Below are positions 12,333 through 43,109 of a DNA stretch of 64,000 bases, piece after piece (within the stretch, counting starts at the first letter, position 1; each line of letters begins with the position of its first letter). A program made the translations under genes and the position numbers. The stretch lies in contig NZ_QKLU01000005.1 in the NCBI RefSeq assembly GCF_003208655.1, positions 154,889-218,888 on the forward strand. The letters are read 5' to 3'. The stretch comes from Pedobacter nutrimenti. Lineage in GTDB: Bacteria; Bacteroidota; Bacteroidia; Sphingobacteriales; Sphingobacteriaceae. The notes beneath the pieces are model-generated. The model did no database searches and was not told the DNA's origin. It saw only the letters and a list, made by a program, of their open reading frames with translations.

Positions 12333-12337
12333 TAAGT

Positions 12338-12369: not shown

Positions 12370-12584
12370 GTATTGGTTTGTTAAGAAAATGTTAAATGTT
12401 GGTAGATTGGCTTATTTCAATTAAACTGAATTGTTTAAACATATACTGTTTTACTGAGTTTGTCATTTAAAATATAGGGTTTTCTCTGTTTGAAATAGTG
12501 TTTCGTATAAATTACAGTTTTAGATCGTTCATTTAAACAGGATTTCCATTAAAATTGCGGCTCACCAGTAAATCTTAGGGCCTT

Positions 12585-14930: not shown

Positions 14931-14957
14931 GGGCCATTCAGCGGGCCAGAGAAAACT

Positions 14958-15323
14958 TTAATAACCGGTTTGCAGTTCGGTGCCAAAAACGAGGGTATTC
15001 CCATCTGGATCATGGACAGCAAAATCGCGCATTCCATAGTAACGGTCTTCAAGTGGAACATCTATAATTGCACCATTTTTTGAGATTTCATTAAAATAAG
15101 TGTCAACTTCATCACAGTTTATGCAAAAATGGGCCTGGCCAATTGTTTTTTTTCTACCTGGATTTGTCGGGCCGCTTAAATGGATACAGACCTCATCCAT
15201 AACCAGACCGGCATAGGTTTCCAATTTGAAATCTTCCTTAAAACCTAAAACAGATTTGTAATACTGTAAGGAGGTATTCAAATCAGAAACATGAACGACA
15301 ATTGCGGTACTTAAAGCTTTCAT
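14958..15323 (-). CDS. VOC-superfamily protein (glyoxalase/bleomycin-resistance fold)
   Basis: 121 residues with the two beta-alpha-beta-beta-beta units of the VOC fold: HVSDLNTSLQYYKSVLGF in the first unit and HDPDGNTLVFGTEL at the end, where the last Glu and a His are typical metal ligands. No substrate can be assigned. Single gene, convergent with the MscS channel gene. Confidence 0.85.
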   Translation of the reverse strand: MKALSTAIVVHVSDLNTSLQYYKSVLGFKEDFKLETYAGLVMDEVCIHLSGPTNPGRKKTIGQAHFCINCDEVDTYFNEISKNGAIIDVPLEDRYYGMRDFAVHDPDGNTLVFGTELQTGY

Positions 15324-15572
15324 AAAAAAATGATCATAAACTTAACAAATAAAATTTTTAAATGCGTTATTATGACGATCTCTTCTTGATTTTTTCAAAG
15401 CATTATATTTAAGATTTTATTGTGTCAGGCACTTGTATTTGTTTATCTGTTGAACACATTAAAACGTTTCATTTGTTTAATAAAAAATGAAAACAAGATG
15501 TCTCTGCGGGATATGGATGGAGATATAAGATTTTTGGGATTGTCTTTTCAAAGAAAACAATAAAGGAAAAGT

Positions 15573-16274
15573 ATGATGGTACATAATTATAGTTTAAGTA
15601 ATGAAGAAATAGTAATCAGATTACTTGTTGCAGCAACACTTGGTGGACTGATCGGTTGGGATAGGGAAAGAAAAGATGGTGTAGCAGGGTTGAGAACGCA
15701 CATGCTCGTTTGTGTTGGGGCTTCTTTGATGATGATCGTGTCTGCATTTGGATTTAAGGATATTCTCGGACAACCTTCAGTTGTCTTGGATCCATCCCGT
15801 ATTGCCGCTCAGGTAATTAGTGGAATAGGTTTCCTCGGAGCGGGCACTATCTTATTTCTCAGGCCACAAATCATAAGAGGGTTGACTACTGCAGCTGGAT
15901 TATGGAGTGTTGCCGGTATAGGACTGGCAGTGGGTGGAGGATTGTATGTCGCCGCTATTATTGCCACTGCGTTAATATTTGTCATATTGGCATTGATAAA
16001 ACCATTTGAGAAGAGATTTTTAAAAAGTATAAAGGGGAGAACATTGGTCGTTCTGTACAATTCAAAGATCATAAAATTGGCACAAATAGAAGGAATTATG
16101 GTCAAAAATGAGTTGGTTGCCAGTGAAATTCTGATTCATTGCAGCAATGAAAATGCCACAGATGAGTTAACCCTGACTTTTGATCATAAAACTCCAATAT
16201 CTAAAATCCTGCAGGCTATCGATGAATTAAAAATAACGACGGGAATAAATGAAATAACCTCAAAAATGCGGTAA
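15573..16274 (+). CDS. MgtC/SapB-family membrane protein
   Basis: 233 residues. The N-terminal MgtC core is distinct: LGGLIGWDRERK, AGLRTHMLVCVGA, DPSRIAAQVISGIGFLGAGTI and RGLTTAAGLWSVAGIG, spanning about five membrane segments to residue ~150. A ~80-residue cytoplasmic domain follows, with an ACT-like alternation (LVASEILIHCSNENATDEL). MgtC proteins are linked to growth at low magnesium and ATP synthase inhibition in pathogens; in environmental Bacteroidota the role is unknown. Monocistronic. Confidence 0.9.
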   Translation: MMVHNYSLSNEEIVIRLLVAATLGGLIGWDRERKDGVAGLRTHMLVCVGASLMMIVSAFGFKDILGQPSVVLDPSRIAAQVISGIGFLGAGTILFLRPQIIRGLTTAAGLWSVAGIGLAVGGGLYVAAIIATALIFVILALIKPFEKRFLKSIKGRTLVVLYNSKIIKLAQIEGIMVKNELVASEILIHCSNENATDELTLTFDHKTPISKILQAIDELKITTGINEITSKMR

Positions 16275-16350
16275 GTAAAATGCAACAAAATGTTTAAGAC
16301 GGTGTCCTATAGGAACATCGATAATTTACACGTATTTATCCTTTAAAAAT

Positions 16351-17742
16351 ATGATAAACTTCAAGCTCACTGTTTGTATAGTTCTGATCAGCTTATGTGC
16401 CGAAGCTCAGCAAAATCTCAAAAATCTCCTGAAAAATACAAACTGGATCCAAGAGGGTTATGGAAGATACCTGAAAATTGATGATTCTACCTATACCTAT
16501 TACAATACGAACCAGACGGAGTGTAAAAAGCTGGTAGAAGGGAAATTCAGTGGAAGATTTAAAGTCGTTTCTTTAAATAAAGACAAACTTATTCTTAATC
16601 CAGGTGGAATTGTAAATTATCATTTTAAAAGGATTGATTCATTGCCGTCCACGTGCAGGACTGTTGTCAAAATGCCTACTTCGTATGAGGAGAATTTTAA
16701 GGTCTTCTGGGAAACCTTTCACGATAATTATGCCTTTTTCCGGGAGAGAAATTTGAACTGGAAGCAAGTTTATAAAAATTACTTGCCAAGGGTAAGAAAA
16801 ATAAGAACAGAAAAAGAATTCGCAGATATATTGCTTGAAATTGTCAAAAAAATAGGTGATGGTCATATCAGAATGGAAATTCCGGATTCCCTGAAAACGA
16901 AAATAGTTGTAAAAAATCCTGGAATGCTAAGGAAGAAGGATAATATCATCATGGATATACAGGATAGGTATCTAACAAACGTACAATCCTATAATGACGG
17001 GGTTATCAAATGGGGGAAAATAAAAAACAGTAAGATCGGTTATGTGCTTATTAAGGATATGAACAATTTTTCTGACTACATTTCTTCTGTTGAACAGCAT
17101 CATTCCACTTTTACAGAAAACTATGATAGGGTCAGGGCATCCAAAGAAGCGCTTGTCCAATTTGATGACGAGTGTGCCGGGGTGGATAAGATTATGGAGA
17201 AGGTCTTGAATGATATAGGGCAATCTGATTCCATGGTTATAGATCTTCGGTTTAATGGGGGTGGCTTAGAGACGGTGGCTTTGAAGCTTTTGAGTTATTT
17301 TGTTAATGAAAATAAACCTGTTCTTTCCATAAAGGCTAAAACTCCTTTTGGTTATACCACACAGCAGGAATATATACTGCAAAAAGCTAACAAAAATTAT
17401 AAAGGCAAAGTTTATCTGCTTTTAAGTGCCGGAACAGCAAGTGCTGCAGAAATTTTTGCTTTAGGTGCACATGGCTATCCCAATATTATAACAATAGGCT
17501 CAAGTACAGCAGGCATTTTCTCAGAAATATTGTGGAAAAAACTTCCCAATGGATGGGAATTTAGTTTGTCGAATGAAATTTACACTGACCCAAATGGAAA
17601 AACTTATGAAGGAATAGGTCTTCCGGTAAACTACGAGTTGAATTATCCGAGAAACCGAACGGAGTTTTATAATAGTTTTTATGTTGGAGGTTATTTTACT
17701 GACCTTGCACTTGATAAAATCTCTGGTAAAGTGAGCAGATAA
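16351..17742 (+). CDS. secreted S41-family (C-terminal processing) peptidase
   Basis: 463 residues, signal peptide ending at CAEAQ. Residues ~20-95 are a lipocalin-like beta domain. The S41 core follows: IGDGHIRME, MVIDLRFNGGG, and LLLSAGTASAAEIFAL with the expected catalytic Ser in T-A-S-A-A-E, then IGSSTAG and a C-terminal EGIGLPVNYEL. No PDZ domain is evident, as in many Bacteroidota tricorn-like S41 proteins. It likely degrades peptides in the periplasm. Convergent with the response-regulator gene, 18 bp apart. Confidence 0.88.
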   Translation: MINFKLTVCIVLISLCAEAQQNLKNLLKNTNWIQEGYGRYLKIDDSTYTYYNTNQTECKKLVEGKFSGRFKVVSLNKDKLILNPGGIVNYHFKRIDSLPSTCRTVVKMPTSYEENFKVFWETFHDNYAFFRERNLNWKQVYKNYLPRVRKIRTEKEFADILLEIVKKIGDGHIRMEIPDSLKTKIVVKNPGMLRKKDNIIMDIQDRYLTNVQSYNDGVIKWGKIKNSKIGYVLIKDMNNFSDYISSVEQHHSTFTENYDRVRASKEALVQFDDECAGVDKIMEKVLNDIGQSDSMVIDLRFNGGGLETVALKLLSYFVNENKPVLSIKAKTPFGYTTQQEYILQKANKNYKGKVYLLLSAGTASAAEIFALGAHGYPNIITIGSSTAGIFSEILWKKLPNGWEFSLSNEIYTDPNGKTYEGIGLPVNYELNYPRNRTEFYNSFYVGGYFTDLALDKISGKVSR

Positions 17743-24452: not shown

Positions 24453-24475
24453 GATGCTTGTTAGCATTTTTTAAG

Positions 24476-24549
24476 TCGGGGTGGCAGGATTCGAACCTAC
24501 GACCTCCACATCCCAAATGTGGCGCGATACCGGGCTACGCTACACCCCG
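24476..24549 (-). tRNA. tRNA-Pro (anticodon TGG)
   Basis: 74 nt. The acceptor stem CGGGGTG pairs with CACCCCG, followed by discriminator A. The anticodon arm CCACA-TTTGGGA-TGTGG places TGG as anticodon, and GGTTCGAATCC forms the T arm. No CCA is encoded at the 3' end. Confidence 0.95.
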
Positions 24550-24994: not shown

Positions 24995-26638
24995 ATGGCG
25001 AACCGTTACCCCTGGCTGCTTCTTTTTATATGGGCTGCTCTGGTACAATTCTGTACACTAAAGAGTGCAGCACAATCTGCAAATGGTTCTATTTTAAAAA
25101 TAACAGAACAACTTGGGCGGCAGTATCCCGATTCTGCTTTCCTGCTGCTCCGGAAACTTTATGCAACAGCGGAAAATAATAAGGACAGCCACAATGCAGG
25201 CGTATGTCTTCAGCAAATGGGACAGGTTTGTTTTAACCAGGGGCATTATGCCCAGTCACTTGATTTTTATCAGAGGGCCGAAAAGAATTTCAGACAGTAC
25301 AAAGACATGCAGCAACTGGCCTCTGTTTTGAACAATATGGGGCTGCTTTTTTATTATAATAAACAAAATGACCAGGCCTGGAAACATTATCAGCAAGCCT
25401 TAATACTTTACAAGCAGGTAAACAACAGGATTGGAATAGCTGAATCTTTAGGGAACCTGGGGCATTTATTTGAAAAACGTCAGCAATATGACAGTGCCCA
25501 GTACTATCAGCACCAGGCCCTTTCTGAATATCAGAAAGCAGGAAGCAAAAATGGGACCGCTAAAATTTATGAGAACCTGGGCAGTATTTATGAAGATCTC
25601 GCTAAATATGACTCTGCACATTACTGTTTTAATAAAGCGATAAATCTTTATCAGAGAGATCATAATGAAGTAGCCAGTATAGAGGTTATCAATAACCTGG
25701 GGGATATTTTAAGAAAAACGGGCAGATACGCAGAAGGGATGAAAGAGACCCGAAGGGCACTGAATTTAGCAGTAAAGACAAATAATTTGTATCAGATTGG
25801 TGCCGCTTACAGGGATATTGCAAAAACATTCAGGCTCATGCACCAGCTGGACAGTGCTTACGATTATCTGGAGCTCAGCAGAAAATATGCCCTGGAAGTT
25901 TATTCCAAGGAGGGTACCCAGCAAACCTCTTTTTTACAAGTTCTGTACGATACCGATAAAAAGAACGATGAGATCATCCGTTTACAGAACATCCGAAAAA
26001 CCAATCGCATCATTTCCATTTCTGTAGGTATTGTACTGGTGCTTCTGGTAACATTGGGCTTGGTCATTTTCAGCAGGCAAAAACTTAAAATCAGAGATGA
26101 GAAGCTGATCGCAAAAAAAAGCAGGGATGTTTATGAAGCGCAAAAAGTCCTGATGCAGGTTGAACTGCGCAACAAACAACTGGAAGAAGATAACCTCAAG
26201 CAGCAACTAGAACTTAAAACCAAAGAATTGACCTCACATACTTTAAACTTGATTCAGAATAACCAATTGCTGGAAGAGCTCAGGGAAAAACTCCAGAAAT
26301 TGGTTAAAGAAGATAAAAGAGATCAGAAAAAACAACTCCAGCAAATGGTCCAGCAAATTACGCAGAGCTTTAATAACGACCAGCACTGGAAAGAATTTGC
26401 CAATATATTTGAACAGGTGCATCAAAGTTTTTATGACAATCTTAAAAAATACAGTGAAGAGCTCACTGCTAACGATAGGAGGCTACTGGCTTTGCTTAAA
26501 ATGAACCTGGCCTCCAGGGACATCGCCCTTCTTCTTGGGATTTCTCCGGATAGTTTGCGTATTGCAAGGTACCGGCTTCGCAAAAAACTCAATATTCCAA
26601 CAGGGGAGAACCTGAGTTCCTTCGTAGAGACCATTTGA
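24995..26638 (+). CDS. TPR-repeat membrane regulator with C-terminal HTH
   Basis: 547 residues. Signal peptide to ~residue 27 (LKSAAQS), then about six tetratricopeptide repeats (for example LNNMGLLFYYNKQNDQAWKHYQQAL-type units) through ~320, one membrane helix (~338-360), a long coiled coil (~365-470) and a C-terminal LuxR-like helix-turn-helix (NLASRDIALLLGISPDSLR; YRLRKKLN). The layout means a periplasmic sensor part and a cytoplasmic DNA-binding end. It lies directly upstream of the TonB receptor/phytase genes on the same strand and may control them; that is inference from position. Confidence 0.9.
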   Translation: MANRYPWLLLFIWAALVQFCTLKSAAQSANGSILKITEQLGRQYPDSAFLLLRKLYATAENNKDSHNAGVCLQQMGQVCFNQGHYAQSLDFYQRAEKNFRQYKDMQQLASVLNNMGLLFYYNKQNDQAWKHYQQALILYKQVNNRIGIAESLGNLGHLFEKRQQYDSAQYYQHQALSEYQKAGSKNGTAKIYENLGSIYEDLAKYDSAHYCFNKAINLYQRDHNEVASIEVINNLGDILRKTGRYAEGMKETRRALNLAVKTNNLYQIGAAYRDIAKTFRLMHQLDSAYDYLELSRKYALEVYSKEGTQQTSFLQVLYDTDKKNDEIIRLQNIRKTNRIISISVGIVLVLLVTLGLVIFSRQKLKIRDEKLIAKKSRDVYEAQKVLMQVELRNKQLEEDNLKQQLELKTKELTSHTLNLIQNNQLLEELREKLQKLVKEDKRDQKKQLQQMVQQITQSFNNDQHWKEFANIFEQVHQSFYDNLKKYSEELTANDRRLLALLKMNLASRDIALLLGISPDSLRIARYRLRKKLNIPTGENLSSFVETI

Positions 26639-26873
26639 TCAAAAGCAACTTAACATTTGTTTAACACCCTCTTAATTAAATGGTAATGGCGTTTTTTGTT
26701 TTTGTAATGATTTGATTTTCAGTTTTTTATGATGTTTTTTTTACTAATGTTGCCTTCCCATATATCCCATTTCAGAAGTGTATCTTTTTTGTATACGGTG
26801 CTTTTTTCAAAGCACTCTTTCTGCTTCCCACCTTTGTCCACGTCAAAATAAACGGCAATCAATTATTCAAAAA

Positions 26874-29636
26874 ATGAATCGACTTTTACAAACAGTATTT
26901 TTTTTGTTTATGGGGCTCACAGCTGCCCATGCAACGACCATTAAAGGCCGGGTTTACGACCGGAAAACAGGAGAGACCTTAATCGGGGCGACTGTCCAAC
27001 TGGATAAAACAGGTCTGGTAACTTCTACAGGGCTTGATGGCTCTTTTGAATTAAAACATGTACCACTTGGTGCCCAGCTACTCAGGGTTTCTTACCTGAG
27101 GTACAAGACGGTGGTTATGGAACTGAACATTCAGAAAGAAGACAATGACAAATTGAAGATCTATCTGGAAGAACAAAATGGCAAAGATTTAAATGAAGTG
27201 GTTATTCAGGCCAAACATGACGGTTCTGCAGAAAAAACCGCTAGGAGGTTAGAGCAGCAATCTGTGCCAATGGTCAATATGGTGTCGGGAAAAGCAATGG
27301 AAATTTCACCGGATCTGACTGTTGCCAATGTAATTCAGCGGGTTTCCGGAGTTTCCATTGAAAGAAACAGTAACGGTGACGGACAGTATGCGATTTTAAG
27401 GGGTATGGACAAACGCTATAATTACACCCTTGTCAATGGCGTTAAAATTCCCAGTCCGGATAATAAATACCGTTATGTTCCGCTGGATATTTTTCCTTCA
27501 GAATTGTTGGAAAGGTTAGAAGTATATAAGACCTTAACCCCAAATATGGAGGCTGATGCGGTGGGGGGTGTTGTGAATATGGTGATGAAAGATGCGCCTG
27601 AACGTTTGCAGGTCAATGCAAATTTTGCAGCGGGTTATAGCCAGATGTTTTTGGACCGTAACTTTATGAGTTACGATGCTTCAGGGATTAATTATAAATC
27701 CCCTTATGAGATTAATGGTAAAAATTACAATGCAACACAAAATGACTTTCCAAAAGGAGTAAGGGATTATAAATGGAAAAGCCCTGCACCAAACCTGATT
27801 GGAGGATTATCCGTTGGTCAACGTTTTTTAAATCATAAACTGGGTGTTATTGTTGCAGGAAGTTATCAGAATACCTATCGTGGCTCAAACAGTACTTTTT
27901 ACAATTCCGCTGTTGTGGATGCGTCAAACAAATACGCCAGAGTTACCGGTCTGAGTGAAAGGCAATATTCAGAACAGCAAAAACGCTATGGATTGAATGC
28001 TAAAGTTGATTATGTTTTTAATCAAAACCATAAAATTAGCCTGTACAATGTTTATCTGAATTTAGTCAATCAGCAGGTAAGAGATGTGTTGTCTACCGAT
28101 TTCTCCTCTGATTATGATCCGGTTAAAGGAAATGCCCAGTTAAGCTATACCACACGTTCTAGGTTAACAGAGCAGCAAATTTACAACAGTACCCTTCATG
28201 GTGACCATAAATTGCTGGATGGCCGTTTAAAAATTCAGTGGTCTGGTGTGTATTCCTCAGCAAAAAATGATGTTCCGGACAATACTATTATTGGTTTAAG
28301 CGGTGAGCGTGTTAATTTTCAGGACCGCAGGACAGTGGCTAAAACCAATGCAAGCAGCAGCAGATGGGAACGTAATACCGACGAGGATAAGGCCGCTTAT
28401 CTTGATGTGACTTATACAGCAGATATTGCAGGAACGAAAGTAGATTTCTCTGCAGGCGGATTATACCGGGATAAGCAGAGAAGCAGTTTTTACAACAACT
28501 ATACACTAACGCCGGTAAATACAGCTGCAAAGTATGGTGTTGATTTTAACAATTACACCCAAATTGATTTCAAGGTTCAAAATCCGACAGGGGGTGTAAG
28601 TAATCCATTAACGAATAATGCTTCAGAGCAGACAAGTGCGGTATATGGTATGTTTAAATTTACAGTTAAAGATTTACAGGTTGTTGGAGGTCTGAGGGCA
28701 GAGCACACCAATCAGGGTTATGATCTTCTTTTTCCTGCAGGAGAAAAATTTCCAAAAGGGAGCCAGGTGTACACGGATTATTTGCCAAGTCTGAATTTAA
28801 AATATGAATTAAACAAGCACCAAAACCTTAGGGCATCCTATTTTCGTTCTTTAAACCGTCCGGGTTTTTATGAAATCATTCCGGGAAAGGTGGTCAACGA
28901 AGAATATCAGGAAAGAGGAAACCCGGATTTGAAAAGGGCCCTTGCCGACAATTTGGATATCCGTTATGAACTTTTTCCAAATGCCGGGGACCAGCTCCTG
29001 GTGGGTGCTTTTTACAAAAAGATAAAAGACCCTATTGAATATATATTTAAACCTGATGAAACCCGCGGACAGGATACCTATTATAGTCCGGGTAATTTCG
29101 GTGTGGCGCGTAATTATGGATTAGAAATTGACTACATCAAGTTCATTCATAAATTCGGAATCAAGGCGAATTACACCTACACCCATTCCAGTATTACCAC
29201 GCCAAAGAGCAAAAAGATTATAGATGAAAACCAAATGCCAAAAAACATTCTGGTGGATCAAACAAGACCACTTTATGGACAATCAGCGCATGTGGCCAAT
29301 CTGTCTTTCCTTTATAAAAGCGCTAAGAAAAAATGGGATGCACAAATTGCAGCCTCTTATACGGGCCCAAGGATAAACACAGTATCACAATTTTTAGATA
29401 ATGATTTATGGCAGGAAGGGTTTATACAACTGGATGCTTCTGTCGAAAAAGGTTTTAAAAATGGCTTGAGTGTCTTTATAAAAGGCGGGAACCTATTGAA
29501 CACTCCGTCAAGACTTTTTATTAAAGGAATTAATCCCACAGATGCCGGAATAGCCAGACAAGAAGAGGGAAGAACCATTATTCGTGATGACCAGTATAAA
29601 CAAACTTATTTGCTGGGAATACGCTATAAACTGTAA
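26874..29636 (+). CDS. TonB-dependent outer-membrane receptor
   Basis: 920 residues from the ATG at 26874, which gives signal peptide MNRLLQTVFFLF...AHA; the frame is open 32 codons further up but that part lacks signal features. Domains: carboxypeptidase-regulatory-like beta domain (~22-110, IKGRVYDRKTGETLIGATV), plug domain (~130-260, ISPDLTVANVIQRVSGVS; EADAVGGVVNMVMK), then a ~650-residue beta barrel ending LLGIRYKL with the terminal aromatic/hydrophobic strand. It is not SusC-type. Followed after 51 bp by a lipoprotein and a phytase, so phytate or an inositol phosphate product is a plausible ligand. Confidence 0.92.
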   Translation: MNRLLQTVFFLFMGLTAAHATTIKGRVYDRKTGETLIGATVQLDKTGLVTSTGLDGSFELKHVPLGAQLLRVSYLRYKTVVMELNIQKEDNDKLKIYLEEQNGKDLNEVVIQAKHDGSAEKTARRLEQQSVPMVNMVSGKAMEISPDLTVANVIQRVSGVSIERNSNGDGQYAILRGMDKRYNYTLVNGVKIPSPDNKYRYVPLDIFPSELLERLEVYKTLTPNMEADAVGGVVNMVMKDAPERLQVNANFAAGYSQMFLDRNFMSYDASGINYKSPYEINGKNYNATQNDFPKGVRDYKWKSPAPNLIGGLSVGQRFLNHKLGVIVAGSYQNTYRGSNSTFYNSAVVDASNKYARVTGLSERQYSEQQKRYGLNAKVDYVFNQNHKISLYNVYLNLVNQQVRDVLSTDFSSDYDPVKGNAQLSYTTRSRLTEQQIYNSTLHGDHKLLDGRLKIQWSGVYSSAKNDVPDNTIIGLSGERVNFQDRRTVAKTNASSSRWERNTDEDKAAYLDVTYTADIAGTKVDFSAGGLYRDKQRSSFYNNYTLTPVNTAAKYGVDFNNYTQIDFKVQNPTGGVSNPLTNNASEQTSAVYGMFKFTVKDLQVVGGLRAEHTNQGYDLLFPAGEKFPKGSQVYTDYLPSLNLKYELNKHQNLRASYFRSLNRPGFYEIIPGKVVNEEYQERGNPDLKRALADNLDIRYELFPNAGDQLLVGAFYKKIKDPIEYIFKPDETRGQDTYYSPGNFGVARNYGLEIDYIKFIHKFGIKANYTYTHSSITTPKSKKIIDENQMPKNILVDQTRPLYGQSAHVANLSFLYKSAKKKWDAQIAASYTGPRINTVSQFLDNDLWQEGFIQLDASVEKGFKNGLSVFIKGGNLLNTPSRLFIKGINPTDAGIARQEEGRTIIRDDQYKQTYLLGIRYKL

Positions 29637-29687
29637 TAATCAAGGAGAGCGCTTAAAACTCCACTGAAATTAACAAAAAAAGAACAG

Positions 29688-30941
29688 ATGAAATTTAAAC
29701 AGATAATAATAGGTGCCGCTCTTGTGATCATGGGCGCCACTGGCTGTAAAAAAGCAAATAGTGATGTAGACCCAGATACAGGGAATGGTACAGTAACCGG
29801 GGAAATCTCCGGGGTATGGCAAAAAGGAAGTACTCAGGTAATTAAAGGGGACATTATTGTTCCGGAAGGAAAATCTCTGATTATTGAAGAAGGCGTAACT
29901 GTGCTGATGGATACGGTTGCCAAACCAGAGATTATTATAAAAGGTAATTTGTATGTACAGGGTACTGCCGAACTTCCGGTGAGGTTTACCGTGGACCCTG
30001 CCTTTAGAACAGATGCAAAGAAATTTGGTAAATTATGGGGCGGAATTTTAGCGGCACCAAGTTGTTCAGAACTGCTTTTAGATCATGCTATTATAGAATA
30101 TGGTGGCTCAACAACTTCCGATGCATCGACCTCGGTGAAACAGGGTTTATATAAAGCCATTGCCGGCGAAAATCTACCAGCTTTATGGTTTTCCAATGTA
30201 AAAGGCAAGCTGGTTGTCACCAATAGCATTTTTAGAAATATGCAGGAGGATTGTACTTATATTGACGGAGGGCGGGTCCTTTTTGCAAACAATACTTTTT
30301 ACACAACAGGTTTAACTGGAGGAGAAGCCATTAACCTTAAGTCGGGATGTGTAGCCGATGTAGCCTATAATTTAATATACAGTGCAAATACCAATGCTTT
30401 AAAATTATCCAATGCTGGAGACCGTACACCACAAGCTTATGTTATTGCCTATAACAATACCATGGTTAATACCGGCTGGAGAAGACCAACAGCAAAAGGT
30501 GGTTCTATTTGGGTAGAAGCAACTGTCAGAGTGGAGGTTTATAATAACATGTTTGTAAATACCCGTTTTGGAGTGAAAAGAGATACCAAGAAACCAGAAG
30601 ATTCCAGGTCCCTGTTTAGCAACAACTATTATTATGGTTACGACCAGACTACAGTTAACCAGTTTCAGCCCTCGGCAGATATCATTGGAGGAACAAATGA
30701 TGTAATTGGAAAGAAAGCCGGGGATAATGACCCTAAGTTTGCAAATTTCCCTTTGGATAACCCGGTAAGCAGTCCAAATTTTAATACGGCCTGGGATTTT
30801 CATCTAAATGCGGGCTCACCTGCTTTGGCGAAAGGGAAAACGAATTTTACCCGCAACCACGCTGCTGGTATGGAAATGAACGGAACGGTTTACAAATCTC
30901 CTGAACCTTCCACCTATATTGGCGCTTTCGGAACAAAATAA
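29688..30941 (+). CDS. lipoprotein with right-handed parallel beta-helix
   Basis: 417 residues; lipobox GATGC at residues ~16-20 predicts surface or periplasmic lipidation. From ~residue 45 the sequence has repeating short hydrophobic strands with Asn/Gly turns (VIKGDIIVPEGKSLIIEEGV; AEVAYN-like NNTFYTTGLTGG), typical of a parallel beta-helix; LGGILAAPSC-like segments occur in related Bacteroidota proteins. It lies between the receptor and the phytase gene and may be a ligand-binding partner of the receptor. No catalytic residues can be assigned. Confidence 0.75.
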   Translation: MKFKQIIIGAALVIMGATGCKKANSDVDPDTGNGTVTGEISGVWQKGSTQVIKGDIIVPEGKSLIIEEGVTVLMDTVAKPEIIIKGNLYVQGTAELPVRFTVDPAFRTDAKKFGKLWGGILAAPSCSELLLDHAIIEYGGSTTSDASTSVKQGLYKAIAGENLPALWFSNVKGKLVVTNSIFRNMQEDCTYIDGGRVLFANNTFYTTGLTGGEAINLKSGCVADVAYNLIYSANTNALKLSNAGDRTPQAYVIAYNNTMVNTGWRRPTAKGGSIWVEATVRVEVYNNMFVNTRFGVKRDTKKPEDSRSLFSNNYYYGYDQTTVNQFQPSADIIGGTNDVIGKKAGDNDPKFANFPLDNPVSSPNFNTAWDFHLNAGSPALAKGKTNFTRNHAAGMEMNGTVYKSPEPSTYIGAFGTK

Positions 30942-30965
30942 TCATATCTACATCAACTAAAATCA

Positions 30966-32018
30966 ATGAATAAATTAATCATAACCGGGGCCATTTTACT
31001 TTTCCATTTAAATATGGCCTGCGCACAAAATAATACCAGCATTAAACCCGTAATCATCACTGAGCCTGTTCAGTTCGATTCAGATGACCCTGCCATATGG
31101 GTAAATCCGGCCGATCCTTCAAAAAGCCTGGTGGTTGGTACCGACAAATCGGAGCAAGGGGCACTTTATGTTTATGATCTTCAGGGAAAAATTGTGCAGG
31201 TTGTCAAAGATTTGAAACGGCCGAATAATGTTGACATTGCTTATGGCTTACAATTGGGGGGAAAACCTGTGGATATAGCCATTACCACTGAACGCATTAC
31301 CCATAAACTGCGTATTTTTTCACTTCCTGATATGAAACCTGTAGACAATGGCGGTATCCCAGCTTTTGAAGGAGAAGAAGGAAAAGGTTTCAGGGATTTA
31401 ATGGGGATTGCCATTTACACCGCAAAAAACGGTAAAATGTATGCGATTGCCGGACGCAAAACAGGTCCGACTACAGGAGGATATTTATGGCAATACCTGC
31501 TTGAAGATGACGGTACAGGTCATGTTAAGGCTAGTCTGGTCCGAAAATTTGGTAAATACAGTGGTAAAAAAGAAATTGAAGCCATTGCGGTGGATAATGA
31601 GTTGGGCTATATTTATTATTCCGATGAGCAGACCGGTGTACGCCAGTACTATGCGGATCCTGAAAAAGGAAATGATGAACTTTCCATGTTCGGGACCAGC
31701 GGTTTTGCAGAAGACCATGAAGGGATTTCCATTTACAAATTGACAGATACAACCGGGTATATTCTGGTTTCCGATCAGGGGGCCAACCGCTTTCAGATTT
31801 TCAGAAGGGAAGGAAGTCCCGGAAAACCATTTGAGCATAGCCTTCTTAAAACGGTAAATGTAAATGCTTCCCACAGCGATGGTTCTGATGTGGTGGCAGT
31901 ACCACTGAACGAAACCTTTAAACATGGTTTGTTTGTGGTGATGAGTGACGATAAAACTTTTCATTATTACCGCTGGGAAGATATTGCCGGTAAAGATTTA
32001 GGCATAAAAGGAAAATAA
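30966..32018 (+). CDS. beta-propeller phytase (3-phytase), secreted
   Basis: Hydrolyses phytate (inositol hexakisphosphate) in a calcium-dependent manner. 350 residues with signal peptide ending ACAQ. Conserved beta-propeller phytase motifs in order: DSDDPAIWVNPADPSKS, GTDKSEQGALYVYDL, RPNNVDIAYG, KEIEAIAVDNELGYIYYSDE, EDHEGISIYK and SDQGANRFQIF. Last gene of the receptor-lipoprotein-phytase unit, ended by a strong hairpin. Family call is firm. Confidence 0.93.
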   Translation: MNKLIITGAILLFHLNMACAQNNTSIKPVIITEPVQFDSDDPAIWVNPADPSKSLVVGTDKSEQGALYVYDLQGKIVQVVKDLKRPNNVDIAYGLQLGGKPVDIAITTERITHKLRIFSLPDMKPVDNGGIPAFEGEEGKGFRDLMGIAIYTAKNGKMYAIAGRKTGPTTGGYLWQYLLEDDGTGHVKASLVRKFGKYSGKKEIEAIAVDNELGYIYYSDEQTGVRQYYADPEKGNDELSMFGTSGFAEDHEGISIYKLTDTTGYILVSDQGANRFQIFRREGSPGKPFEHSLLKTVNVNASHSDGSDVVAVPLNETFKHGLFVVMSDDKTFHYYRWEDIAGKDLGIKGK

Positions 32019-33518: not shown

Positions 33519-33551
33519 TTTGCATTTTATGAACAGTGTTCAGTATATTTG
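33519..33551 (+). promoter_or_regulatory. promoter of the tetR gene, overlapping its operator
   Basis: TTTG at 33519-33522, 21-bp spacer, TATATTTG at 33544-33551, both in consensus. The operator palindrome (33530-33542) fills the spacer, so bound repressor should block the polymerase. It also shows that the translation start is the ATG at 33568, not an upstream one. Confidence 0.68.
33530..33542. promoter_or_regulatory. TetR operator copy 1 (autoregulatory)
   Basis: TGAACAGTGTTCA, a perfect 6-bp inverted repeat around one base, between the -33 and -7 elements of the tetR promoter. Confidence 0.65.
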
Positions 33552-33567
33552 CAGTGTTATTATAGTT

Positions 33568-34182
33568 ATGGCAATTAAAGACAGAAAAGAAAGGGATAAA
33601 CTTGACAGAAGAAAACTGATCATTGAATCAGCTACGCGTCTTTTTCTGGAACAGGGCTATGATAAAACCTCTATTCGTAATATTGCCGATGATATTGAGT
33701 ACAGCCCCGCCACGATCTATCTGTACTTTAAAGAAAAAGACGAGATTTTTTACGTCATACACGAGCATGGTTTTGAGTTGTTGGGTAAAGAATTTACAAC
33801 CCTTAATGACATCATTAACCCGCTTGACCGCCTGTTGGAAATGGGAAAAACCTACCTTAAGTTTGGAATGGAAAACCCGGATTATTATGACCTGATGTTT
33901 ATTATGCGTGCTCCACTGGCTGAAATCGAATGCCATTCCAAATGGGATGCCGGCGACAATGCTTTTCAATATCTGGTCAATACCATAACAGAATGTCTGG
34001 ATCAGCAACTGATTAAACCGGGAGATCCAAAAGTGATCTCCATGTCTGTATGGTCATTTGTTCATGGTTTGGCTTCTTTACATATCCGTGAGCGGTTTAA
34101 GTCCCTGGATATTGACGATGAGCAAAGTAAAATCTTATTGTCCCAAAGTCTGGAATATTTGATTGCAAATTTAAGAATCTAA
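33568..34182 (+). CDS. TetR/AcrR-family transcriptional regulator
   Basis: 204 residues from ATG 33568. N-terminal HTH: RRKLIIESATRLFLEQGYDKTSIRNIA followed by SPATIYLYFKEKDEIFY, split here over residues ~12-60, a standard TetR DNA-binding domain. The C-terminal part is helical and contains a DUF-type dimer/ligand region (NPDYYDLMFIMRAPL; SVWSFVHGLASLHI). The gene is flanked on both sides by copies of the same palindrome and is followed by an RND efflux operon, so it most likely represses itself and the pump until an inducing compound binds. Confidence 0.93.
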   Translation: MAIKDRKERDKLDRRKLIIESATRLFLEQGYDKTSIRNIADDIEYSPATIYLYFKEKDEIFYVIHEHGFELLGKEFTTLNDIINPLDRLLEMGKTYLKFGMENPDYYDLMFIMRAPLAEIECHSKWDAGDNAFQYLVNTITECLDQQLIKPGDPKVISMSVWSFVHGLASLHIRERFKSLDIDDEQSKILLSQSLEYLIANLRI

Positions 34183-34198
34183 AAAATTTGTAATCAAA

Positions 34199-34211
34199 TG
34201 AACAGTGTTCA
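34199..34211. promoter_or_regulatory. TetR operator copy 2
   Basis: TGAACAGTGTTCA, identical to the copy in the tetR promoter, 17 bp after the tetR stop and ~100 bp before the efflux operon. Confidence 0.62.
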
Positions 34212-34276
34212 CTAAATAACCATCGATTATTTTTTTTGAATTTTACCGTAACAACTGAAAAAAATACAACTCTAAA

Positions 34277-34289
34277 TAAACAGTGTTCA
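34277..34289. promoter_or_regulatory. TetR operator copy 3 (one mismatch)
   Basis: TAAACAGTGTTCA differs from the other two copies at one base and lies 22 bp before the TolC gene start, 65 bp from copy 2. Two sites suggest looping or cooperative repression of the pump. Confidence 0.55.
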
Positions 34290-34311
34290 TTTTATAAACA
34301 ATGATAAAATC

Positions 34312-35655
34312 ATGATAAAACAAATCAATATTAAGGCTATACTGCTGTGTATTTGCCTTTATTGTTTTCCTGCCGTGGGTTTTGCACAACATGTTCTTCA
34401 GGGCTATATTGAGCAGGCCCTGAAAAATAATATTGGCCTGCAAAAACAGGATTTTGCAGTAGAAAAGAGCTTGTTTGCCCTAAAAGAGGCGAAGGGTTTG
34501 TTTCTGCCAGAGGTAGAATTCAATACTTCTTACCTGACTTCCGGTGGGGGACGTAAAATCCAGATTCCTATAGGTGATCTGCTTAATCCTGTCTATAATT
34601 CTTTAAATGCGTTAACCGGTACAGGGAAATTTCCACAGGTTGAAAATGTAAGTCAGACTTTTAACCCAAACAACTATTACGATGCGAAGCTGCACACCAC
34701 TTTGCCCCTTTACAATGCAGAAATTATTTACAACAGTCGCATTCGAAAAGAGCAGATCAGTTTGCGCCAGGCAGAGCTTGCTGTATATAAAAGAGAACTT
34801 ATAAAAAATGTTAAACTGGCCTATTATGGTTATCTGCAAAGCCTGGAGGCCTTAAAGGTGCTGGAAAACGGATTGTCTCTTGCCGCGGAGAACCTGAGGA
34901 TCAATCAAACCCTGGTTAAAAACGGAAAAGCCATCCGTACTGTAATTAGCAGAGCAGAGAACGAACTGACCGGCTTACAGGCTCAACTCGAGGATGCCAA
35001 AGCACAGTCTTTAAATGCTGCCGCCTATTTCAATTTTTTACTGAACCGGCCATTAAATGTGGCAATTGAAGTAGAAGCTGCAGGAAAGGCGGCGGGACAA
35101 GATTCCGCTACGGGGAAAAGGGAAGAATTGGTGGCACTGGAATCCGTCAGTCAAATTAATGATTTATCCTTGCGGCTAAACAAATCTTTTATACGCCCAA
35201 AGCTTTCCACTTTCCTGGACCTGGGTGCTCAGGGTGATTTTCTGAAAGTAAACCGAGATGTTCCATATTATCTGTTTGGAATCAACCTTTCCTGGCCAAT
35301 CTTTTCAGGCAACAGAAATAAAAACAAAATCAAACAAGCTGAACTGGAACTCAGATCTTCACGGGCTGAAAAAGACATGGCAGAACAACAACTGGAGTTA
35401 GAAGTTGAAACTGCCAGAAACAAACTCAGGGCCGCATTGCAAAGCTATAAAGCGGCAAAAAGTCAAAGTCTGCTGTCCGGACAATATTTTAAAGATGAGC
35501 AAAGGTTGTATAAAGAGGGGCAGGCCCTTTATCTTGAATTACTGGATGCCCAGACCCGGCTGATCAATGACCAGCTTAAAGAAAGTATTGCCTACTTCAA
35601 TGTACAGACCCGTGAAACGGAGCTGGAAAGGGCAAACGCAAGTTACAAACTTTAA
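34312..35655 (+). CDS. TolC-family outer-membrane efflux protein
   Basis: 447 residues, signal peptide ending VGFAQ. Two repeats of long helices and beta strands typical of the outer-membrane factor family: YGYLQSLEALKVLENGLSLA-type helices and FGINLSWPIFSGNRNKNKI in the second half, with YLELLDAQTRLINDQL near the end. Forms the outer-membrane channel of the tripartite pump with the next two genes (6 bp and adjacent). Confidence 0.93.
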   Translation: MIKQINIKAILLCICLYCFPAVGFAQHVLQGYIEQALKNNIGLQKQDFAVEKSLFALKEAKGLFLPEVEFNTSYLTSGGGRKIQIPIGDLLNPVYNSLNALTGTGKFPQVENVSQTFNPNNYYDAKLHTTLPLYNAEIIYNSRIRKEQISLRQAELAVYKRELIKNVKLAYYGYLQSLEALKVLENGLSLAAENLRINQTLVKNGKAIRTVISRAENELTGLQAQLEDAKAQSLNAAAYFNFLLNRPLNVAIEVEAAGKAAGQDSATGKREELVALESVSQINDLSLRLNKSFIRPKLSTFLDLGAQGDFLKVNRDVPYYLFGINLSWPIFSGNRNKNKIKQAELELRSSRAEKDMAEQQLELEVETARNKLRAALQSYKAAKSQSLLSGQYFKDEQRLYKEGQALYLELLDAQTRLINDQLKESIAYFNVQTRETELERANASYKL

Positions 35656-35670
35656 ATATTAATGATAATC

Positions 35671-36705
35671 ATGAAAAAGAATAACTACATCCTCCTGATA
35701 TTAATTAGCGGAGTGCTATTTGCCGCCTGCCGCCCGGCTAAACCGGTTGAAAAAACAAACCAGGCCATTTCAGTAAGGGTCATATCGGCGGCAGCCCTTC
35801 ATGAAAGTGAAGCGCTGGAGAGTTCTGGTTTACTTTCTTCCGAGCAGCAAAGCAATCTTTCCTTTAAGGTCGGGGGGATTATTCAGAAAATTCTTGTCAA
35901 GGAAGGGGACCATATTAAAAAAGGACAATTGTTGGCTTTGTTGAACAGAACAGAAGTGGATGCCCAGCTTAATCAGGCAGAAGAAAATTATGCAAAAGCA
36001 AATAGAGATGCAAAGCGGACAGCGAACCTCTTTAGGGACAGTGTAAGTACAAGGGAACAATTGGAAAATACACAAACTGCATTGAACATTGCAAAAAAGC
36101 AATTGGATATTGCCCGTTTCAACAGCAGCCAATCGAACATTATTTCCAATACCGATGGGGTGGTCCTTAAAAAACTGGCAAATGAAGGTGAACAGGTTGC
36201 AGGTGGGGCACCTGTTGTGTATGTCAGCAGCATAGCCAGTAAAGATTGGGTCATCAAATGCGGTATTACAGATAAAGACCGGGCCAGGCTCCAGGGGAAT
36301 GAACGTGCAGAAGTGAGTTTTGATGCCTTTGATCAGAACTTTTCCGGCAAAGTGAAATCTATTGCACAAGGTAGTGACGGCAGTTCAGGTTTATACCAGG
36401 TAGAGATCAGGCTCGAGCCATCTTCAGCTAAATTACTTTCAGGCCTGTTTGCCAAAGTAAAAATCTATCCTTCAGGAAAAACGGACCTATTGTCCCTCCC
36501 TGTGGATGCGCTTGTGGAAGGAAAAAACGATAGTGCGTTCGTCTATACGGCTGTAAGCAATAAAGCCTTTAAAAAAGCAGTTAAAATAGCTTATTTGAAA
36601 GGAGATAAAGCTTTTATATCCGGGGGACTGCTTCCAAACGACCAGGTGATCCGGGAAGGCTCAGCTTACCTGACTGAAGGATCAGCCCTAAAAATTGTTC
36701 AATAA
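35671..36705 (+). CDS. RND efflux periplasmic adaptor (HlyD/MFP family), lipoprotein
   Basis: The ATG at 35671 gives signal MKKNNYILLILISG with lipobox FAAC, so the adaptor is lipid-anchored; an ATG nine bases upstream is also in frame. Segments: barrel-sandwich/lipoyl half (KVGGIIQKILVKEGDHIKKGQ), helical hairpin (LNQAEENYAKANRDAKRTA), second lipoyl half (ISNTDGVVLKKLANEGEQV) and beta-barrel domain. Links TolC to the RND pump. Confidence 0.93.
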   Translation: MKKNNYILLILISGVLFAACRPAKPVEKTNQAISVRVISAAALHESEALESSGLLSSEQQSNLSFKVGGIIQKILVKEGDHIKKGQLLALLNRTEVDAQLNQAEENYAKANRDAKRTANLFRDSVSTREQLENTQTALNIAKKQLDIARFNSSQSNIISNTDGVVLKKLANEGEQVAGGAPVVYVSSIASKDWVIKCGITDKDRARLQGNERAEVSFDAFDQNFSGKVKSIAQGSDGSSGLYQVEIRLEPSSAKLLSGLFAKVKIYPSGKTDLLSLPVDALVEGKNDSAFVYTAVSNKAFKKAVKIAYLKGDKAFISGGLLPNDQVIREGSAYLTEGSALKIVQ

Positions 36706-36721
36706 CCTAAAGATTTCAAAA

Positions 36722-39700
36722 ATGAAATTACCAGAATTTTCTGTCAAAAATTATCAGTTTACCCTTATTGTTTTCATTGCGGTACTGGCTCTTGGGATCT
36801 ATTCTTTACTGACCATGCCAAGGAGTGAGGACCCTGAGGTCCATGCCCCACAGTTTTCAGTAATTGTCGTTTATCCGGGTACCAATCCAAAAGATATTGA
36901 ACAACTGGTGGTTGATCCTATGGAAAAAAAGATCCACGAGCTCGACGACATCAAACATGTGACCACCGACATCAGCAACGGGCTTGCTGTGATGCAGGTC
37001 ATCTATAAATACGGAACCAATCCTGATGATAAATACCAGGAAGTTGTCCGGGAGATCAATAGTCTCAGGGGAGATCTTCCGGCGGATATTTCTGCAATCC
37101 GTATAGAAAAACAAACGCCATCTGATGTGAGTATTTATCAGTATGCCCTGGTTAGTGAAAATGCTTCTAATGCCAGTTTAAAAAAATATGCCAAGGACCT
37201 TAAAGAGCGCCTGGAAAAAATACAGGCTTTAAAAAAAGTCGCTTATGCCGGTGTTCCCGAACATCAGGTAAACGTAAAACTGAACCTGCAAAAAATAGCC
37301 CAGGAAAAACTAACTCAAAATACTATAATTGCGGCCCTGCAAAGTGAAAATGTAAATATCCCGGGAGGAAGCGTAAGCATTGCAGACCGTAAACTGAACA
37401 TTAAAACCAGTGGTAATTACAGCAATCTGGATGAAATTAAAAATACGGTAGTTTATACTGCAAACGGCAAAATTGTTTACCTGAAAGATGTAGCGGATGT
37501 TAGCCTGGGTTATCAGGATGAAACACACCTGACCAGACTCAATGGCTACAGATGTGCTTTTGTAAATGCCAGTCTGAAGGATAAGGAAAACATTATAAGT
37601 GTGCAGGATAAAGTAGAACCTGTAATGGCGAGCTTTAAAAAGACTTTGCCCCATAACATTGATCTGATTAAGGTATTTGACCAGGCAAAAAGTGTGGATG
37701 TGCGGCTTTCCCATTTTACAAGGGATTTTACCATTGCGATTCTGTTGGTGCTGCTCACCCTGCTGCCCCTTGGAACCAGGGCCTCTGTAGTGGTGATGAT
37801 CTCTATTCCACTTTCACTGGCCATAGGACTGACCCTGATGAACCTTCTGGGCTATAACATTAACCAGTTAAGTATTGTAGGGATGATTGTTGCACTGGGT
37901 ATCCTGGTGGACGACAGCATTGTGGTCGTAGAGAATATAGAGCGTTACCTTCGGATGGGATATGGTAAGGTGGAAGCCTCCGTTAAAGCGACTTCACAAA
38001 TCGGTATTGCTGTAGTCGGATGTACGGTATTGCTTATTTTTGCCTTCCTGCCAATAGTATTTCTTCCCGAAGGTGCAGGGGATTTTATCAGGAGCCTGCC
38101 ATTGTCGGTGATTACGACCATTTTGGCCTCCATGATCGTATCTTTAACGGTAGTCCCTTTTCTAGCCAGTATTATCCTTAAGCCTCATGCAAGTGAAGAA
38201 GGAAATTTTTTACTCAGGGCCATGAAAAAAGGAATACACACGACTTATGGAAGAGTGCTTTCCATTGCACTGAATAAACCTTTACCTACCTTACTGATTA
38301 TCGGGGCTATTTTTATAGGCTCCCTGGCTCTTGTGCCCATTATTGGCAGCAGTTTATTTCCAAAGTCAGAAAAACCGATGTTTATGGTCCAGATTGAAAC
38401 CCCGGAGGGCACCAATCTGAAAGCCACCGATAAGGTCACCAGATATGCAGAATCTGTTTTAAAGCAAATCCCGGAAATCAGCTCTTTTGCCTCAAACGTT
38501 GGAAAGGGAAATCCCCGGATCTATTACAATGTAGGCCAGCATAATGAAAGCGAAAATTATGCAGAGATCTTTGTGCAAGTAGAGGGTTTGCATACCAGGG
38601 AAAAAGTAGCTGTAATTGAAAAGCTGAGAAAGAAACTGGAAAATTATCCGGGAGCAAAAATAAAAGTGAAAGATTTTGAACAGGGCCCCCCACAGGAGGC
38701 ACCATTGGCCTACCGGATTTATTCCGATGACCTGACCGCCCTTCGCAAAACCGCATTTGAAATTGCTGCACTGATCAGCAAAGTAGATGGTACCATCTAT
38801 GTAAATAATCCTTTGCTGGTGAAACCAACGGATCTTAAGGTGAGCATCAATAAAGAAAAAGCCGGAGTGCTTGGCGTTGCCTCAGCAGATATAGACCGGA
38901 CAGTCAGGTTGGGTGCTGCAGGACTGAATGTGGCCACTTACCGGGAAGATGCCGGTAAAGCCGATAATTATAATGTGAATGTGTCTATCCCCAGAAATGC
39001 AGAAATACAGGACGTAGGGATGTTTGACCGTTTATATGTTCCTTCGGCTTCAGGGACGAACATCCCTTTCAAAAATGTAGCCTCAGTTGGTTTTGAAAGT
39101 TCACCCAATCAGATCAGGCATTATGATAAGGACCGTTATGTAACCATTTCTGCCTTTGTAAAGCCCGGGTATAATGTACAGCAGCTGGACAAACAGATCA
39201 CAGCGCAGCTGGAAGCATTTAAATTCCCTAAAGGTTTCAGTTTTAAGGTGGCAGGAGAAAAGGAAAGCAAAGAAGAAAGTTTTGGAAATCTGGGCGTGAT
39301 CCTTATTGTTACGGTATTTGGTTTTCTGGGTGTACTGATCCTGGAGTTCAAAACATTTAAAAGCATTCTCATTGTTTTGTCTGTTATTCCTTTGGGGATT
39401 GTGGGCGGATTGATTATGCTCTACTTTGCCGGGGAGACCCTATCCTTCACTGCTACCATTGGTTTTATTGCACTGGTGGGCATAGAAGTGAAAAATTCCC
39501 TGCTGGTGGTCGATTTTACCAACCAGCTGCGTGCCCAGGGCAGGAGCATAGAAGAAGCTATTGTCGAGGCGGGAGAGGTACGTTTTGTACCCATTCTGCT
39601 CACTTCATTAACTGCTATTGGCGGCTTGTTGCCATTGGTTATAGAATATAGTGAACTGTATTCCCCTTTGGCCCTGGTACTTATTGGAGGACTAATCAGT

Positions 39701-39772
39701 TCCACCTTATTGTCCAGACTGGTTACTCCGGTCATGTATAAATTACTGCCGCCCGCTGTTGTGCAGGAATAA
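36722..39772 (+). CDS. RND-family efflux transporter permease
   Basis: About 1016 residues from ATG 36722 (an upstream in-frame ATG at 36695 overlaps the adaptor gene). Twelve membrane segments with two large periplasmic loops. TM4 contains GILVDDSIVVVENIE with the paired Asp residues used for proton translocation in the HAE/multidrug group. Heavy-metal (CzcA) proteins differ there, so drugs or other small organic molecules are the likelier substrate. Third gene of the TetR-controlled operon. Confidence 0.94.
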   Translation: MKLPEFSVKNYQFTLIVFIAVLALGIYSLLTMPRSEDPEVHAPQFSVIVVYPGTNPKDIEQLVVDPMEKKIHELDDIKHVTTDISNGLAVMQVIYKYGTNPDDKYQEVVREINSLRGDLPADISAIRIEKQTPSDVSIYQYALVSENASNASLKKYAKDLKERLEKIQALKKVAYAGVPEHQVNVKLNLQKIAQEKLTQNTIIAALQSENVNIPGGSVSIADRKLNIKTSGNYSNLDEIKNTVVYTANGKIVYLKDVADVSLGYQDETHLTRLNGYRCAFVNASLKDKENIISVQDKVEPVMASFKKTLPHNIDLIKVFDQAKSVDVRLSHFTRDFTIAILLVLLTLLPLGTRASVVVMISIPLSLAIGLTLMNLLGYNINQLSIVGMIVALGILVDDSIVVVENIERYLRMGYGKVEASVKATSQIGIAVVGCTVLLIFAFLPIVFLPEGAGDFIRSLPLSVITTILASMIVSLTVVPFLASIILKPHASEEGNFLLRAMKKGIHTTYGRVLSIALNKPLPTLLIIGAIFIGSLALVPIIGSSLFPKSEKPMFMVQIETPEGTNLKATDKVTRYAESVLKQIPEISSFASNVGKGNPRIYYNVGQHNESENYAEIFVQVEGLHTREKVAVIEKLRKKLENYPGAKIKVKDFEQGPPQEAPLAYRIYSDDLTALRKTAFEIAALISKVDGTIYVNNPLLVKPTDLKVSINKEKAGVLGVASADIDRTVRLGAAGLNVATYREDAGKADNYNVNVSIPRNAEIQDVGMFDRLYVPSASGTNIPFKNVASVGFESSPNQIRHYDKDRYVTISAFVKPGYNVQQLDKQITAQLEAFKFPKGFSFKVAGEKESKEESFGNLGVILIVTVFGFLGVLILEFKTFKSILIVLSVIPLGIVGGLIMLYFAGETLSFTATIGFIALVGIEVKNSLLVVDFTNQLRAQGRSIEEAIVEAGEVRFVPILLTSLTAIGGLLPLVIEYSELYSPLALVLIGGLISSTLLSRLVTPVMYKLLPPAVVQE

Positions 39773-43036: not shown

Positions 43037-43070
43037 GAAGGCCGGTTTAGGTTTTTATAGGGCTTCTAAC

Positions 43071-43103
43071 ACAAAAAGCGGTCTGTTTAGGACCGCTTTT
43101 TGT
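43071..43103 (-). terminator. hairpin between SusD and GH92, probable partial terminator
   Basis: ACAAAAAGCGGTC (43071-43083) and GACCGCTTTTTGT (43091-43103) pair perfectly with a 7-base loop. On the minus strand the 3' arm is U-rich. Such hairpins after susD often reduce enzyme transcript relative to susCD. Confidence 0.7.
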
Positions 43104-43109
43104 ATCTGT

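Follow-up and report, generated by a model that had tools for sequence, protein, structure and literature searches.

In Flavobacterium johnsoniae, the phytase Fjoh_1367 and the TonB-dependent receptor (TBDT) Fjoh_1368 are tabulated as induced by low phosphate (Pi), and the phoBR operon of the same organism contains a TBDT together with an FII lipoprotein (Lidbury et al., PMC8115612). The lipoproteins FI to FIII are reported there as beta-helix proteins of the pectin lyase/polygalacturonase kind. For the beta-propeller phytase (BPP) of Pedobacter nyackensis, listed as experimentally validated, sequence motifs are tabulated in Table 1 of PMC12406696 and kinetics are quoted in PMC7137328. Here we describe a unit that joins modules of this kind in a 64,000-nucleotide stretch of the Pedobacter nutrimenti genome (contig NZ_QKLU01000005.1, positions 154,889 to 218,888 of the forward strand; below, the window). 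It consists of genes for a membrane regulator with tetratricopeptide repeats and a helix-turn-helix (TPR-HTH), a TBDT, a beta-helix lipoprotein and a BPP. Phytate is the main phosphorus store of plants and a large locked phosphorus pool in soil.

Gene set and conservation

The four open reading frames (ORFs) were confirmed at positions 24995–32018 of the window, all on the + strand. An earlier sequence-only reading had named the same genes in the same places, which ORF coordinates and Pfam domains bear out. Together they form a conserved cassette of membrane TPR-HTH regulator, TBDT, beta-helix lipoprotein and BPP. The phytase family PF02333 is present in 82 of 201 genomes of a family sample and in 51 of 395 genomes of a phylum sample, the two samples overlapping. 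One hundred phytase loci were fetched. The family was covered by 60 genomes and the window's own out of the 82 (21 left), the phylum sample by 39 of 45 further genomes, one with two sites; the six omitted were weak or partial matches. Genes were called as simple longest ORFs, and 97 loci were counted, L153, L156 and L157 being dropped for want of a phytase ORF above 250 amino acids. At 92 of the 97 a TBDT lies within five genes upstream of the phytase on the same strand, a clustering far beyond chance. The other five have no upstream receptor above 500 amino acids; one of them, L145, was scored as receptor-less with a receptor-like ORF of 440 amino acids upstream, below the length limit.

The complete cassette recurs around the relatives of the lipoprotein. 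Out of 432 relatives found, the 80 best loci from named genomes (Pedobacter, Mucilaginibacter, Chitinophaga, Sphingobacterium) were examined, and 79 have all four genes; in the remaining one the contig is 3.9 kb long and breaks off short of the regulator. By this choice the 80 are near kin of the window, the nearest belonging to Pedobacter and Mucilaginibacter. Because the genes 3′ of the phytase vary between loci, a PAS kinase gene (32135) and a TetR gene (33520) downstream were rejected as members of the unit. The TetR gene opens a typical efflux unit at 33520–39772 (+), with an outer-membrane efflux-type gene (by reading) and an AcrB-type pump.

Two receptor types

The receptor (26874–29636, +; 920 amino acids) has Pfam plug, barrel and CarbopepD_reg_2 domains. 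Its ORF (26778–29636) opens with GTG at 26778, and the signal peptide starts at the ATG at 26874, the likely start. The sole NCBIfam match is TonB-Xanth-Caul (TIGR01782) with 279 bits, below the cut-off of 310. No SusC/SusD model was among the matches and the next gene encodes a beta-helix protein; a SusC/SusD-type system was therefore rejected, and the receptor is non-SusC, as the sequence-only reading had it.

The loci can be sorted by their receptors. In type A (27 of 97) the receptor is 47–66% identical to that of the window; a beta-helix lipoprotein accompanies it at 27 of 27 loci and a TPR-HTH gene at 26. In type B (65 of 97) identity is just about 22–32%, a beta-helix lipoprotein occurs at none of the 65 loci, and a TPR-HTH gene is adjacent at 21. 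Type A units show a median lipoprotein–phytase distance of −12 bp, a receptor–lipoprotein distance of 23 bp and a median of 260 bp from the TPR-HTH gene to the receptor. Several type B units have a metallophosphatase-like, purple-acid-phosphatase-like or lipoprotein gene in between (by reading).

A second receptor/lipoprotein pair without phytase, probably another organic-phosphate locus, is found in the same genome (L168; G000:C7:183500-203400, 9284–17014). Its receptor is 44% identical to that of the window. Locus L114 holds a type B phytase unit plus a nearby receptor/lipoprotein pair without phytase, and its type B phytase receptor is 25% identical to the receptor in the window. Divergent from the L168 pair stand a purple-acid-phosphatase-like gene and a MauG-like di-haem peroxidase gene; like these, purple-acid-phosphatase-like genes and a MauG-like gene lie between receptor and phytase in the type B loci L086 and L087 (by reading).

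A quick tree built from 93 phytases implies five changes of receptor type, at least three of them on supported branches. Since the receptor type changes on this tree, the phytase has probably been joined more than once to two distantly related receptor modules (about 25% identical). The TPR-HTH gene accompanies both types.

The TPR-HTH regulator

The gene at 24995–26638 (+) encodes a putative one-component regulator with a Pfam TPR_12 match (8.7e-29). The HTH, which was not a match in the Pfam scan, was recognized by reading and in the structure model, and the transmembrane assignment is by reading. The layout comprises a signal or anchor helix, a TPR array (~45–300), a putative transmembrane stretch (~337–359), a coiled coil and a C-terminal LuxR-like HTH (~492–531). 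In the model (predicted local distance difference test, pLDDT, 80.5; predicted template modelling score 0.56) a TPR solenoid is followed by one long helix with a hydrophobic stretch and the C-terminal HTH. Judged by reading, the TPR array would be periplasmic and the protein would cross the membrane once. The AlphaFold models used in this work were built from alignments of just 15 and 13 rows. The protein stays below the NCBIfam cut-offs for SusR (18.5 of 480 bits), BT3442 (62.2 of 940) and FimS (51.6 of 600). Just upstream of the regulator gene lies a tRNA-Pro (TGG) gene (24475–24549, −).

The TPR-HTH gene follows the phytase, that is, it is dedicated to it. The window's genome contains no close paralog, the next full-length match being 24% identical. 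With a threshold of E≤1e-40 the regulator was found in 17 of the 18 other phytase-bearing genomes of the genus sample (exception G050; 18 of 19 with the window's), and in none of 17 genus-sample genomes and none of six others of the family without phytase. A fair comparison is that within the genus, because the phytase-bearing search set of 23 genomes included five from other genera that were picked as known bearers. In five type B loci (L062, L092–L095) the gene lies between receptor and phytase. For the 44 type B loci without an adjacent copy, 20 genomes were searched for a distant one. A single full-length match was obtained, at L091 (E 7.6e-122, about 8 kb away), and nothing better than about 1e-28 in the other 19.

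Two conserved elements upstream of the receptor

In the alignment of relatives, the gap between the TPR-HTH and receptor genes holds two conserved elements unreported in the sequence-only reading. One is a Pho-box-like array at 26650–26689 (+) with four units at 11-bp spacing (TTAACAT-TTGT-TTAACAC-CCTC-TTAATTA-AATG-GTAATGG), a candidate for the Pho box equivalent that this reading had suggested looking for. TTAACA repeats resemble the PhoP repeats of Bacillus subtilis, and the geometry is like that of PhoB boxes. Scored over three phased units on either strand, the array reaches at least 14 of 18 at 22 of 27 type A loci, at 15 of 21 type B loci with and 21 of 44 without an adjacent TPR-HTH gene, and in 23 of 225 other upstream regions. 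Together with the matches elsewhere in the genome given below, these data support, without proving, a Pho box. A literature search for a Bacteroidota Pho box turned up nothing evidently on it.

Exact matches to the array pattern occur four times in the genome: at this operon, 48 bp upstream of the gene for the genome's best PhoB match (224 bits; next 200.5), and twice at FecR/sigma genes. One-mismatch matches lie, among other places, at the start of ppk1 and in the promoter region from which the second receptor/lipoprotein pair and the purple acid phosphatase gene diverge; some others adjoin genes without evident phosphate link. In L170, L171 and L178, from the same genome, TTAACA-phased sites stand between sigma-factor-like and FecR-like genes (by reading), an unexplained observation.

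The other element, motif 2, is the predicted operator of the TPR-HTH protein. It reads TGTATCT-N4-TGTATAC at 26779–26796 (+) and scores 15.7 bits with a weight matrix from other loci, trained on type A only with the window left out. The common type A form is TGTTGCC-N4-TGTAACC, and an identical 18-mer is found in 11 of the 27 type A loci. A weaker upstream copy, TGTTGCC-N4-CATATAT at 26748–26765 (+), was located by alignment and differs from TGTTGCCNNNNTGTAACC at five positions. Downstream, CACCTTTG at 26829–26836 (+) may be a −7 element: the alignment has CAnnTTTG in the 80% consensus of 28 sequences and in the 90% consensus of 11, and we take the Bacteroidota −7 consensus to be TAnnTTTG. Among family members scoring at least 13, the array starts a median of 211 bp before the receptor ORF in 36 loci with TPR-HTH and 75 bp in 15 loci without; in the TPR-HTH-bearing operons motif 2 takes the promoter-proximal place.

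Motif 2 co-varies with the regulator. A score of at least 10 bits, reached by 17 of 598 control regions (99th percentile 11.6), is found at 18 of 21 type B loci with an adjacent regulator and at 2 of 44 without. The two exceptions are L091, with its regulator about 8 kb off, and L081, where the site lies inside the receptor ORF. After L091 was moved by hand the counts are 19 of 22 type B loci with a regulator in the genome and 1 of 43 without; among 1100 letter shuffles made from the 22 regions, 21 attain 10 bits. The same difference is seen inside genus g4, and in g16 between L114 and its TPR-less relatives. The exact type A 18-mer was searched for in 16 genomes of the genus and gave 10 matches, once in each of 10 genomes and always at the phytase operon. 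With up to two mismatches there are 20 matches, 12 at phytase operons and 8 elsewhere, compared to 15 for a control pattern; this search missed the window's own copy, which departs from the genus form. Regions in front of the TPR-HTH gene reach 10 bits for motif 2 in 3 of 45 cases, so autoregulation is not indicated.

Lipoprotein and phytase

The gene at 29688–30941 (+) encodes a predicted right-handed beta-helix lipoprotein of ElpS/FII-like architecture with the lipobox GATGC (by reading). Pfam Beta_helix falls slightly below its cut-off (25.0 vs 25.9 bits), and the model is a right-handed beta-helix with a pLDDT of 88.6. In VIA-align the best match has Z 24.0 over 272 residues at a root-mean-square deviation of 3.4. 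Among the 50 matches shown, the neighbours are polysaccharide lyases, epimerases, NosD and other beta-helix proteins at Z 20–24 and 9–15% identity, values that support the fold and not a function. Foldseek gave no match to the model below E 0.001; hence the beta-helix assignment rests on the model and VIA-align. A sequence search of solved structures with the lipoprotein profile and a plasmid search with the protein returned no match. Identity is 36% to a paralog in the same genome and 34% to the lipoprotein of L114.

The phytase (30966–32018, +) meets Pfam PF02333 at 1.2e-42 and 146.7 bits against a cut-off of 21, and is the sole match to this family in its 5.7 Mb genome. Its motifs are MG, EAIAVD, DHEG and DG. 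The last two match the general BPP form (DxEG, DG); MG/EAIAVD stands in place of YG/EGxxxD and is close to the MG/ESIAVD of the validated Pedobacter form. As this motif variant is that of the validated P. nyackensis enzyme, activity on phytate is likely. In comparison with Bacillus phytase, with numbering assigned by us from the chain, the equivalents of D55, D56, K76, R122, K179, E211, D216, E227, D258, E260, Q279, D314 and G315 are kept, and E43 is changed to Ile, K77 to Ser, Y159 to Met, E180 to Thr, G212 to Ala, E229 to Thr, E306 to Asn and D308 to Asn. A reading in which Y159 is conserved in the window was rejected, since the residue that maps to this position is Met, which the validated Pedobacter enzyme also has. 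All 15 aligned phytases, the window's included, share a cysteine at the lipobox position, and one was seen by eye in most phytase N-termini of the fetched loci. For this reason the phytase may itself be an outer-membrane lipoprotein. The N-terminus in the window, LNMACAQNN, is ambiguous, being a poor lipobox that fits signal peptidase I too.

Proposed function and alternatives

Acquisition of phytate or organic phosphate as the function of one unit, with the TPR-HTH regulator as a part of it, is supported by these results. On balance we consider it probable that the locus is a phosphate-starvation phytate operon to which a dedicated regulator has been added. The beta-helix lipoprotein would sit on the cell surface and capture phytate or phytate-bearing material and the TBDT would take up the ligand; a lipid-anchored phytase would strip phosphates beside the outer membrane, with Pi passing to the cell. 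Low phosphate would be needed for expression and would act by way of a PhoB-type activator bound to the TTAACA array. The TPR-HTH protein would span the inner membrane, read a periplasmic signal with its TPR domain (an inositol phosphate or the state of envelope machinery) and bind the TGT-repeat operator, motif 2, just upstream of the promoter. More tentatively, and with clear reservations, we propose that the TPR-HTH protein is a new organic-phosphate sensor for periplasmic phytate or its breakdown products that adds substrate control through its own operator, the receptor module being exchangeable and sensor, operator and phytase staying together.

Several observations weigh against this picture. 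The regulator is adjacent in just the 21 type B operons given above and absent from the type A locus L143; missing at many operons, it must be dispensable for this kind of unit. Three of the 22 type B loci with a regulator score below 10 bits for motif 2. A tree-aware test of the regulator–motif association yields four supported independent pairs with 2.8–3.2 agreeing, none opposed and a median p of 0.25, and with only four pairs this test has little power. The usual targets of LuxR-type HTH proteins are inverted repeats, whereas the units of motif 2 are repeated in direct orientation at 11 bp, a layout more typical of OmpR/PhoB-type proteins. The array pattern with up to one mismatch is modestly enriched in the genome (22 matches vs 15 for the reversed pattern), two of the four exact matches stand by FecR/sigma genes, and several one-mismatch matches lie inside genes. 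The best PhoB match reaches neither the cut-off of 296 nor that of the Bacteroides model (270), and no kinase gene adjoins it. Outside the family, the distances of the array from the receptor do not clearly separate (64, 198 and 232 bp with TPR-HTH; 63–344 bp in five loci without). Several Bacillus active-site residues are altered in the phytase.

A different order of events, which we rate as a real possibility though short of even, is hydrolysis at the surface: an exposed phytase lipoprotein would cut phytate outside, and receptor and beta-helix protein would import partly dephosphorylated inositol phosphates, or the lipoprotein would just concentrate the substrate. The conserved lipobox-position cysteine fits this, and several g29 loci read CKDDK after it, which we take to resemble a surface-export signal. 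Moreover, Fjoh_1367 is predicted to be located in the outer membrane (PMC8115612, Table 1), and BPPs stop at inositol trisphosphate (InsP3; PMC12406696), leaving something to import. However, the N-terminus in the window also suits signal peptidase I, type A forms of the window's genus lack an acidic stretch after the cysteine, and Fjoh_1367 was not detected in the exoproteome (PMC8115612). That the receptor serves primarily a metal chelate, iron- or calcium-phytate, with phosphorus gain as a secondary effect, appears very improbable to us. Its subfamily model TIGR01782 names no substrate, and phytate binds metals strongly. Yet the array points to phosphate control and Fjoh_1368 is among the low-Pi-inducible proteins tabulated; with Fe depletion as the control, three TBDTs, not named there, were induced under Pi depletion only (PMC8115612).

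Motif 2 might also be a second site of PhoB or another activator, its link to the regulator reflecting shared ancestry. The 11-bp direct-repeat geometry, the few independent pairs on the tree and the rarity of the motif upstream of the TPR-HTH gene all speak for this. We nevertheless hold it to be rather unlikely: operons without TPR-HTH often have the array and seldom motif 2; within g4, L079, L080 and L083 have motif 2, L082 and L084 do not, and L081 has it only inside the ORF; the f4 loci L138, L140, L141 and L144, with TPR-HTH proteins just 28–30% identical, keep sites of 20–24 bits; and the exact type A form marks the phytase operon of 10 of the 16 genus genomes and no other place in them.

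Elsewhere in the window, a co-directed gene run with an alpha-L-fucosidase and a GH3 enzyme is found at 837–10881 (+). Polysaccharide-utilisation-type clusters occupy 40844–47968 (−; plug-domain receptor and GH92 enzyme) and 49886–54803 (+; plug-domain receptor and SusD-like protein).

Comparison with described systems

The sequence-only reading had regarded the arrangement as not known to be described in detail. For its parts this cannot be upheld: a phytase with a TBDT and a TBDT with an FII lipoprotein are already in print (PMC8115612), as is a TBDT adjoining a phytase in Citromicrobium (PMC3400609), so that both pairings, phytase with TBDT and receptor with ElpS-like lipoprotein, are of a known kind. 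The combination of the two modules, the repeated changes of receptor, a dedicated TPR-HTH protein and its predicted operator were not found in the literature searched, mostly non-subscription papers, and no paper on such a TPR-HTH sensor regulator was found in the open-licence literature.

Like the unit in the window, Fjoh_1367/Fjoh_1368 pairs a phytase of the beta-propeller family with an adjoining TBDT under low-Pi induction, but the table names no beta-helix lipoprotein or TPR-HTH protein (PMC8115612). Most g29 loci in our sample, taken as Flavobacterium-like, have no regulator and a type B receptor. F. johnsoniae PUSIII and PUSIV (TBDT with FI/FII) resemble the present receptor/lipoprotein pair in combining a TBDT and a polygalacturonase-modelled lipoprotein under phosphate control, and differ in that no phytase is named for them in the accessible part of PMC8115612; in the window such a pair is combined with a phytase. 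In Caulobacter, ElpS (CC0170), a phosphate-starvation surface lipoprotein, forms a similar pair with CC0171, which adjoins a type II secretion cluster, with no phytase mentioned in the part of PMC2996285 at hand. Compared by description, ElpS and FI/FII appear to be the nearest described relatives of the lipoprotein by architecture, and lipoprotein signal, TBDT neighbour and beta-helix fold are all found in the window's protein. In Citromicrobium, as here, a TBDT adjoins the phytase, whereas the accessible text of PMC3400609 mentions neither a beta-helix lipoprotein nor a TPR-HTH protein. PhyP of P. nyackensis MJ11 (ACJ35482) shares the motifs MG, E-x-I-A-V-D, D-x-E-G and DG; unlike the present locus it is cited as an enzyme, with no operon described in the accessible parts of PMC12406696 and PMC7137328.

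Should the regulator prove to respond to inositol phosphates, we know of no earlier sensor of this kind with such an architecture. Pairs of BPP and TonB-dependent receptor were reportedly noted by Lim et al. in 2007. The unit described here offers one operon with two named DNA elements and a dedicated regulator that some natural relatives share and others lack.

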